The notes under the pieces: generated by a model
The model's database searches: none
What the model was told of the DNA's origin: nothing
What the model saw: the letters and a program-made list of their open reading frames with translations, nothing else
Source of the DNA: an uncultured Clostridia bacterium
GTDB taxonomy: Bacteria; Bacillota; Clostridia; TANB77; CAG-465
Reading direction: 5' to 3'
DNA: 64,000 bases
NCBI GenBank assembly: GCA_944388585.1
Contig: CALXJI010000005.1
Coordinates: 1-64,000 of the forward strand
Position numbers and translations under genes: made by a program
Part shown: positions 16,398 to 19,558 of the stretch, in pieces
Numbering within the stretch: the first letter of the stretch is position 1
Layout: every line of letters begins with the position of its first letter

Positions 16398-17282
16398 CTA
16401 CATCGCTTCATTTATACTTTGAGATATTATTTCTGACATGATTTCTATAAGTTCGTCAATATCCTTAGGAGTCACTATATAATTTTCTGTATCTAGACTC
16501 TGTGCTATTTTTTGATATCTTTCATTTCTTTCATCAGTAGTGTTCTCTATTTTATTAAGTGCATCATTAGTTATAGTTGCCATATCAACAACCATAGGCA
16601 CACCAATTGAAATAACTTTAGCATTTGTTGTATCTTCATCAATTTGTGTATTAATTCCTGTTATTCCAGAGCCTGGTGTGATTCCTGTATTACTTATTTG
16701 TATTGACGCTCCGACTCTTTTTATAGATTTAGACATCAAACTATCTATAACAATAACATATTTAGGATTTACTATTTTTGAAACAGATGATATTATTTCA
16801 GACGTTTGTATTCCAGTATTTCCCATAACTCCAGGACAAATAGCACTAACTTCTCTTGTATCTTCAGATAATATATCTTTTGTCAGCTTTAGAATATGTC
16901 TTGTAACATCTATTCCTTTTACAACTTTTGAGCCAAGTGCATCAGGAGTTACATACATATTTCCAAGTCCAACTACAAGAACAGATTCTTTTCCTTGAGA
17001 AATAAGTTCTTTTATATACTCTTTTAATTTATCTATTACTTTTTGTCTATCATCTAAAAATTTAATGTTTTCTAGTTCAAATGTTATATACTTTCCTATC
17101 TTCTTATCTATAGCATTTGCTCCATCTTCATTTTTAACCTCAACTTGAGTTATTTTAAATTCATCAAATTTTTGCTCATTTATTTCAATTCCATCAATAG
17201 AGCTCATATTATTTATTACTTTATATTCATCTACTCTTTCATCTGCCATATCTGTATTGTAACTATACTTTTTTTCACTCAT
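16398..17282 (-). CDS. gpr: Germination protease GPR
   Basis: Spore endopeptidase that degrades small acid-soluble proteins on germination. Family signatures include GLGNMYVTPDALGSKVV, ICPGVMGNTGIQTSEII and SNTGITPGSGI. The start is ATG 17282 (MSEKKYSYNTDMADERVDEY): the N-terminal propeptide looks like those of known zymogens and AGAGGTG sits 8 nt upstream. The 294-aa product is slightly short of the common 320-370. It follows holA; the whole intergenic region is a hairpin that contains the ribosome binding site. Confidence 0.95.
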   Translation of the reverse strand: MSEKKYSYNTDMADERVDEYKVINNMSSIDGIEINEQKFDEFKITQVEVKNEDGANAIDKKIGKYITFELENIKFLDDRQKVIDKLKEYIKELISQGKESVLVVGLGNMYVTPDALGSKVVKGIDVTRHILKLTKDILSEDTREVSAICPGVMGNTGIQTSEIISSVSKIVNPKYVIVIDSLMSKSIKRVGASIQISNTGITPGSGITGINTQIDEDTTNAKVISIGVPMVVDMATITNDALNKIENTTDERNERYQKIAQSLDTENYIVTPKDIDELIEIMSEIISQSINEAM

Positions 17283-17326
17283 AAAACACACCTCTATATA
17301 CAATTATGTATATATTGGTGTGTTTT
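17283..17326 (-). promoter_or_regulatory. Hairpin sequestering the gpr ribosome binding site
   Basis: AAAACACACC (17283-17292 on plus) pairs with GGTGTGTTTT (17317-17326), and an inner 7-bp stem TATATAC/GTATATA continues it around loop AATTAT. In minus-strand RNA the 3' arm holds AGAGGTG and ends directly against the gpr start codon, while the 5' arm begins in the holA stop codon. The 3' arm ends in TTTT, so the same structure may also act as a weak holA terminator. Confidence 0.75.
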
Positions 17327-18240
17327 TATAACATACAAATTATTTTTTTTAGTCCAATTTCAAAATCCATGTCTCCATTTTTTGTTTTTTGATCATATTC
17401 ATCAAACGCATAAATTATATTTTTTAACTCATCTACGCTATATTTATTACATGAAACACTTAATTTTTTCACTACAAATGGATGAATAGAAAGAATAGAT
17501 GCAATATTACTTTCTTTTTTTTCTTTTAATAGTTTTATCATTAAAAGTTGTTTATATTGCTTATATAGCATTATATATATTTTAACTATTGATTCTTTTT
17601 GTCTTAATAGAGAATCTAATAAAAAAATAGCCTCTTTTTTCTTTTTATTAACTATATTATCTAATAAATCAAAAATTTTAGCATTTAAAGTTTTGGAACA
17701 TACTTTATCTATCATATCTTTTGTTATTGTATCACTTGTATCACAATAAATTACTAATTTTTGAAGTTCATTAATATTATTTGTTTTATCATTACCACAT
17801 ACATTTTGAAAATATTGTGCATCATCATAAGATATTTTTAATTTATATCTTTTTAGTAAATCTATTATATACTGAGTCATTTTAGCATCATCTAAATGTT
17901 TATACTCAATACATTCAGCTATTTTAGATATAGCTTTATATTCACTTGTTCTTTTATCTACATTATCTTCTATTATTATTACCTTTATATCTTGATCTAA
18001 ATCTTTTAAAATATTTACATTAAATTTTAGATTTGTATCTTTTATTATTATTAATTTCTCACTTCCAAAAAAAGTTACTCCTTGAGCTACACTTTCAAGT
18101 TCATCAATATTATCACTAGTTATATAAAATAAATTAACTCCTAATTCTAAATTTTGAAACTCTCTTTTTATTTTTTCCACTCTTTGATTTAAATCGTATT
18201 TTTCTTCTCCATACAATAAATATATATTGCTCATATTCAA
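17326..18240 (-). CDS. holA: DNA polymerase III delta subunit
   Basis: Clamp-loader subunit that opens the sliding clamp. The 304-aa protein has the HolA pattern: YLLYGEEKYDLNQRVEKI at the N-terminus, a degenerate P-loop-like region, VTFFGSEKLIII in the first domain, and the conserved helical C-terminal third (LLRQKESIVKIYIMLYKQYKQLL). A TAATTAT-rich stop region enters the gpr hairpin. It follows trmFO with a 4-bp gap. Confidence 0.9.
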   Translation of the reverse strand: MNMSNIYLLYGEEKYDLNQRVEKIKREFQNLELGVNLFYITSDNIDELESVAQGVTFFGSEKLIIIKDTNLKFNVNILKDLDQDIKVIIIEDNVDKRTSEYKAISKIAECIEYKHLDDAKMTQYIIDLLKRYKLKISYDDAQYFQNVCGNDKTNNINELQKLVIYCDTSDTITKDMIDKVCSKTLNAKIFDLLDNIVNKKKKEAIFLLDSLLRQKESIVKIYIMLYKQYKQLLMIKLLKEKKESNIASILSIHPFVVKKLSVSCNKYSVDELKNIIYAFDEYDQKTKNGDMDFEIGLKKIICML

Positions 18241-18244
18241 ACTC

Positions 18245-19558
18245 CTATTTTAAGTTTTTTTCTTTAAATTCCTGTATACTTTTTTGTGCTCTATTAGAAA
18301 GTAATGTATATTTTTCTTTTTTATCTTTTATTTTTTTATCCAATGGTTTTAAAATCCCAAAATTTGCATTCATAGGTTGATAATTTTTATTTTCTGTTGA
18401 AACATATTTTGCTAAACTTCCAAGCATTGTATCTTCTGGAAATTCTATTTTTTCATTTTTAAGTCTTTTAATTATACTATAAGCAACCATCAGACCAGAT
18501 GCTGCAGATTCTACATATCCTTCTACTCCAGATATTTGACCTGCAAAATATATATCTTTATCTTTTTCTAAGCAAAAATTATTATCTAACAATTTTCCAC
18601 CGTTAATATAGGTGTTTTTATGCATTACACCATATCTTTCAAACTTTGCATTTTCAAGGCCAGGAATTAAAGAAAATACTCTTTTTTGCTCACCAAATGC
18701 TAAGCTTGTCTGAAATCCAACCATATTATATATTGTTTTTTCCTCATTTTCTGCTCTTAATTGTACTACTGCATATGGCTTTTCATCTATATCTGGATTT
18801 TCTAGTCAAACAGGTTTTAAAGGTCCAAACACAAGCGTTTTTTCTCCTCTTTTTGCCATTTCCTCTATTGGCATACATCCTTCAAAAAGTAGTAGTTTAT
18901 CAAAAGAATGTCTGTTAGCACTTTTAGCATTTATAAGTTCATTATAAAAAGTTAAATATTCTTCTTTATTCATACTTAAATTTAAATAATCCCCTTGTCC
19001 TACTGTACCATATCTATCCATAAAATAAGCCTTTGAATAATCTATGCTATCTGCATCTATTATTGGTGCTGCTGCATCAAAAAAGTATAAACTATCATCA
19101 CCTATTTTCTTTTTTAAATTTTCCATTAATTTACTTGTAGTAAGAGGACCTGTTGCTATAACTTTAATACCATCAATATCATCTACATTACAAACTTCTT
19201 TATTTATTATTTCTATATTACCATTTGATTTTATTTTTTCTGTAATATATTTTGAAAATATATCTCTATCAACTGCAAGTGCTTGTCCTGCTGGAATTTT
19301 TGCTTTATACGCAGCTCTAATAAATAGACTATCTAAAATCTCCATTTCCTTTTTTAACAAGCCACAAGCATTAGTTAAAGACTCAGATTTTAAAGAATTA
19401 CTGCATACAAGCTCTGCAAAATCATTGCTTGTGTGAGCTTCACTTTTATTTTCTGGTTTCATTTCATATAATTTTACTTTTATATTATTGTTTGCAAGGA
19501 TCCATGCACATTCACATCCTGCAAGTCCTGCTCCTATTATTGATATAACTTTATTCAT
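18245..19558 (-). pseudogene. trmFO: TrmFO tRNA methyltransferase interrupted by an in-frame TGA
   Basis: Folate/FAD-dependent enzyme that makes ribothymidine at tRNA position 54. The FAD-binding N-terminus (MNKVISIIGAGLAGCECAW), NSLKSESLTNACGLLKKEM and the C-terminal GQISGVEGYVESAASGLM are all present, and both halves lie in one frame, total 437 codons, which is the normal length. The frame is broken only by TGA at 18806-18808, where the family has glycine in the GPLKPVGLE motif (here PLKPV-stop-LENPDIDEKPYAVVQLR). GGA to TGA is a one-base change. The start at 19558 has AGGAGA upstream. Either a real nonsense mutation, a sequencing error or readthrough; the context TGAC is a weak stop. Confidence 0.88.

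Follow-up and report, generated by a model that had tools for sequence, protein, structure and literature searches.

The gap between holA and gpr in this genome is probably, at roughly 70%, a compact developmental insulator, in which a hairpin that would mask the gpr Shine-Dalgarno sequence (SD) encloses a putative forespore promoter; we base this reading on sequence comparison and predicted folding. The window, the whole stretch of 64,000 nucleotides that was analysed, belongs to a 1.57 Mb genome whose close relatives are uncultured Clostridia MAGs. On its reverse strand, holA is the upstream, co-directional neighbour of gpr, and the 43-nt gap between them (17325-17283) runs from the holA stop TAA at 17328-17326 to the gpr start ATG at 17282-17280. 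The features of the locus, in the direction of transcription, are as follows.

17326 to 18240, reverse strand: holA (DNA polymerase III delta), an open reading frame matching the NCBIfam equivalog model TIGR01128 with 204 bits against a cut-off of 80.
17327 to 17331, reverse strand: -35-like element TTATA within the last holA codons; relatives have GAATA.
17317 to 17326, reverse strand: outer stem 5' arm, AAAACACACC, beginning with the final A of the holA stop.
17308 to 17314, reverse strand: inner stem 5' arm, TATATAC, in the predicted fold.
17302 to 17308, reverse strand: -10-like element CATAATT of sigma-F/G type, in and beside the hairpin loop, 18 bp after the -35.
17295 to 17301, reverse strand: inner stem 3' arm, GTATATA, in the predicted fold.
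17295 (give or take about 3 nt), reverse strand: predicted forespore transcript start, placed by geometry only, which excludes the 5' arms from the RNA.
17289 to 17295, reverse strand: gpr SD, AGAGGTG, overlapping the 3' arm and 6 nt before the ATG.
17283 to 17292, reverse strand: outer stem 3' arm, GGTGTGTTTT, abutting the gpr start codon and containing TTTT, a short T-run like that of a terminator.
16398 to 17282, reverse strand: gpr (germination protease, SASP endopeptidase), matching Pfam PF03418 and the NCBIfam equivalog model TIGR01441 with 277 bits against a cut-off of 120.

Elsewhere in the window, trmFO has one in-frame TGA (18806-18808, reverse strand, GPLKPV*LENP) where relatives L047 and L048 have GGA (Gly); from the sequence this would be a recent nonsense change or an assembly error.

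Together with the last A of the holA stop, the gap reads AAAACACACC-AA-TATATAC-ATAATT-GTATATA-GA-GGTGTGTTTT on the reverse strand, and builds a hairpin with a 10-bp outer stem, a 2x2 internal loop, an inner stem of 7 bp (8 counting one A-U pair) and a small loop. Its predicted RNA fold of -23.3 kcal/mol (z -6.1) was matched by none of 2000 dinucleotide shuffles and by only 3 of the 8526 60-mers of the window. As a genomic baseline we paired the segment 27-62 nt upstream of each start with the last 24 nt before it, at 289 gene starts in a 464-kb sample of the same genome with crude gene calls; gpr ranked first for SD-pairing strength, at -16.3 against -13.5 for the runner-up and a median of -5.0, and none of the other starts in that sample had a combination of hairpin and promoter like that of gpr. 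An Rfam search returned only sub-threshold microRNA matches.

In the predicted folds of both this genome and its relatives, the SD is paired in RNA initiated upstream. The predicted cost of opening the SD in this genome is 11.5 kcal/mol in read-through RNA versus 1.7 kcal/mol in RNA from the internal promoter, and the corresponding medians are 10.4 and 1.5 kcal/mol. Much of what the first-pass annotation had described is borne out here: fold and shuffles agree with a gap that is almost wholly an inverted repeat of 10 bp plus 7 bp, the coordinates agree with AGAGGTG lying inside a 3' arm that abuts the gpr start and with a 5' arm that begins at the holA stop, and the predicted opening cost of about 10 kcal/mol supports its proposal that read-through RNA hides the gpr SD. 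Its gap of 44 bp needs a small correction, being 43 nt plus the last A of the holA stop.

Our comparison covers the gpr upstream regions of 114 genomes in the order, each oriented on its gpr start; some relatives' start codons may be off, and neighbouring genes were called automatically. A count of base pairs on a MAFFT alignment was discarded because indels shift the registers of the arms and the alignment misplaces pairs; in its place we used an alignment-free arm-swap permutation, in which the 3' segment of each genome was paired with the 5' segment of every other genome. Across the 114 genomes, own arms paired far better than swapped arms (sum -1253 versus -741, sd 25, z -20.8), and with one genome per genus (27 genomes) the difference persisted at z -9.0, with 0 of 20,000 permutations as good. 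By a fixed criterion the SD-pairing hairpin is present in 57 of the 114 genomes and absent from the other 57. It recurs in many genera, and its arm sequences diverge strongly, as in CCTCATTATATAC/GTATATAATGAGG (G015), CTCCTACAC/GTGTAGGAG (G084) and AAATTCCACTC/GAGTGGAATTT (G092); on this comparative evidence, complementarity rather than arm sequence is what selection keeps. Since the pairing is kept by compensating changes across the order, the hairpin is probably a real switch. The idea had been staked in advance on pairing in relatives, and it survived: pairing is conserved there through compensation. Of 22 usable upstream regions in a class-wide sample outside the order, most are without a strong SD hairpin and two reach -12.7, so the hairpin design looks enriched in this order, the outside sample being small.

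The promoter draws its credibility from the relatives. By the sigma-F/G criterion that we used (GHATR, 17-18 bp, CATNHTA), TTATA-N18-CATAATT scores 10 of 12, a score reached by about 10% of shuffled upstream regions; its -35 is one base off the consensus, and the promoter alone is not significant in its own genome. Among relatives, the promoters read GAATA or GTATA, 17-18 bp, and CATAATA or a near match, and 51% of the order's gpr upstream regions, versus 1% of shuffles, reach a sigma-G-like score of 11-12 of 12. The hairpin genomes have the 5' arm within the promoter spacer and the -10 in or beside the loop, and in 57/57 of them the start predicted from the best sigma-G-like site falls 3' of the 5' arm, a count to which the hairpin's definition itself contributes. 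GAATA (5 nt) is missing in this species and its sister G010 and is still found in G009; after its loss, a weaker -35 is drawn from the last codons of holA (TTATAA), with the spacing unchanged at 18 bp. The promoter could be of sigma-F or sigma-G type. The genome has a SigE gene identified by a curated model and a gene whose best match is SigG, yet under that model's strict cut-off. In B. subtilis, gpr is under both sigma-F and sigma-G, and in C. difficile it is sigma-F-dependent (PMC3789829). The internal promoter proposed by the first-pass annotation was thus supported by the comparison as a sigma-F/G-type site with a predicted start past the 5' arm; its sigma factor may be F as well as the G assigned there, and the genome's own -35 is eroded.

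In the mechanism that we propose, RNA reading through from holA would carry both arms and fold into a hairpin with the gpr SD in its 3' arm. Such RNA would be poorly translated, and in many relatives it would probably also end at the T-run that separates the SD from the ATG. The forespore promoter, of sigma-F/G type, would place its -35 at the holA stop codon and its -10 within the loop of the hairpin; with that geometry, forespore RNA would begin some 14 nt ahead of the ATG and lack the 5' arm, leaving the SD free. Masking and termination would each silence read-through, and the internal transcript would escape both, so that gpr protein would come essentially from the forespore transcript, and no protein repressor would be involved. 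We infer the start site, the sigma factor, the silencing itself and the split between masking and termination.

In a rival reading, the hairpin is mainly an intrinsic terminator of the holA operon, with the gpr SD as its 3' stem and masking as a by-product. We consider this unlikely as the main explanation, although the outcome for gpr would be the same under either reading. A T-run of at least 5 is present in 82% of hairpin genomes versus 16% of gpr genes without the hairpin, and even at unpaired positions before the ATG, T makes up 82% in hairpin genomes versus 2.9 of 8 at the other starts of this genome. Scored as a G+C-rich stem followed by a T-run, with a threshold of 0, the terminator score is positive in 20 of the 57 hairpin genomes; in most, however, it is negative, strongly so in G015 (-38.5), G087 (-42.8) and G061 (-27.7). 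The SD itself, moreover, is consistently paired, a feature that termination by itself would not call for. Because T is enriched even where it is unpaired, termination may account for some or even most of the silencing, and the enrichment of the T-run after the 3' arm, including at unpaired positions, suggests that selection in the order has probably favoured a terminator role too. In this genome itself, masking is the safer reading, because its T-run is only four long, all paired, and its terminator score is -6.8; a pattern scan found no terminator there. Silencing through a masked SD, as the first-pass annotation had it, is backed by the compensation and the predicted opening costs, but that account had missed the terminator-like T-run, and it has translational coupling to contend with.

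Coupling would have the opposite effect to silencing: ribosomes ending holA would melt the outer stem, and gpr would be translated in proportion to holA. Because the holA stop abuts and overlaps the 5' arm, this is possible in the present genome, where ribosomes terminating on holA might partly open the outer stem; the 5' arm begins at most 10 nt from the stop in 26 of 46 genomes. We nevertheless regard coupling as improbable: the reading is weakened by a stop-to-arm distance that ranges from below 0 to 78 nt, the hairpin is also found after genes other than holA, and a putative forespore promoter sits inside it. More improbable still is that the near-perfect inverted repeat, which does overlap a promoter, is a palindromic protein operator or a chance repeat with no role. 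A sequence-specific operator was rejected because the arms differ in sequence between genomes, varying freely while their complementarity is kept, and chance is excluded by the shuffles, the window 60-mers and the genome ranking.

The genomic context of the hairpin points the same way as the preferred reading of an insulator. The hairpin is present in 33 of 40 genomes with holA adjacent to gpr versus 24 of 74 others (p 5e-7, inflated by the relatedness of the genomes), and most hairpin genomes have a co-directional gene, as a rule holA, whose end lies a short way upstream and which lacks a terminator of its own. In genomes that lack the SD hairpin, a conventional hairpin frequently lies between the promoter and the neighbouring gene upstream (G004, G006, G023, G033, G109 and G131 are examples). 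Among co-directional gaps of at most 150 nt, 44 have the SD hairpin only, 15 a separate hairpin only, 2 both and 16 neither, a near mutual exclusion (odds ratio 0.05, p 7e-6) that holds when restricted to gaps of 60-150 nt (p 0.002), both p values being inflated by relatedness. From this distribution, the hairpin's function is likely insulation from read-through. There are exceptions: in G028, G029 and G030 (L039, L038 and L034), holA lies 47-59 nt upstream and a CATAATA -10 is present, yet the gap lacks both an SD hairpin and a terminator, so gpr does not require insulation in every genome; and in 8 genomes the hairpin is present with no co-directional neighbour called, some of these calls being crude.

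The SD hairpin was found at 0 of 30 SASP genes, which are forespore genes from the same genome family. Upstream of SASP genes of the family (L164, L166, L170, L177 and L185), a common stem-loop seems by eye to be present at the predicted mRNA 5' end, after a CACAAATTA element, with arms GTGTAAAAC...GTTTTACAC in L164 and GTGTAAAGTG...CACTTTAATAC in L177; it is possibly an mRNA stabiliser. In the present genome (G000), no SASP gene (PF00269) was found genome-wide although gpr is intact, and its sister G010 has one SASP gene; the missing gene is maybe an assembly gap.

The logic of such a device is known already. In the phage T4 genes e, soc, 49 and I-TevI, the SD is hidden in early RNA, and RNA from a late promoter that adjoins the structure or lies inside it is without the 5' strand and well translated (PMC3014915). 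The gpr gap resembles these in that upstream-initiated RNA would mask the SD and RNA from a promoter near the ribosome binding site would escape, and differs in having a sporulation sigma-type promoter in place of a phage late promoter, in the T-run that usually follows its SD arm and in the compensation measured over a bacterial order. Another counterpart is B. subtilis sigG (spoIIIG), whose hairpin of 20 or more bp has been suggested to prevent translation of transcripts that read through from the spoIIGA-sigE operon; RNA started at PsigG cannot make it (PMC5942855, which cites Sun 1991 and Masuda 1988). There too, a gene expressed in the forespore follows a co-directional operon to which it is unrelated, has a sigma-F/G promoter of its own and has a hairpin confined to read-through RNA; by comparison, gpr lies behind holA, in another order, across a far shorter gap, with its -10 in the loop and a T-run in most relatives. 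Ordinary intrinsic terminators share the stem-loop followed by a T-run that many relatives have, but the gpr hairpin has a 3' stem that doubles as the next gene's SD and a putative promoter in its loop, and the present genome combines a short T-run with a score under threshold. No paper on a holA-gpr hairpin was found in the open-access literature; the additions to the known logic are the gene, the lineage, the order-wide compensation and the fused terminator-like T-run.

Somewhat more tentatively, and at a little under even odds, we suggest that the order uses a three-in-one element, with a forespore promoter in the loop of an intrinsic terminator whose 3' stem provides the following gene's SD. 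If so, fewer than 60 bp would serve as operon terminator, translational lock and developmental start site, in an element that evolves by compensation, its promoter fixed and its arms free to change. Among natural variants, some have the hairpin and others do not, and the same goes for the T-run, which makes masking versus termination directly testable. If the proposed insulator is real, the logic of T4 and of B. subtilis sigG would be held across an order by strong compensatory evolution, and small-genome gut Clostridia would use about 50 bp of DNA, rather than a repressor, to silence a spore gene that follows a housekeeping operon.
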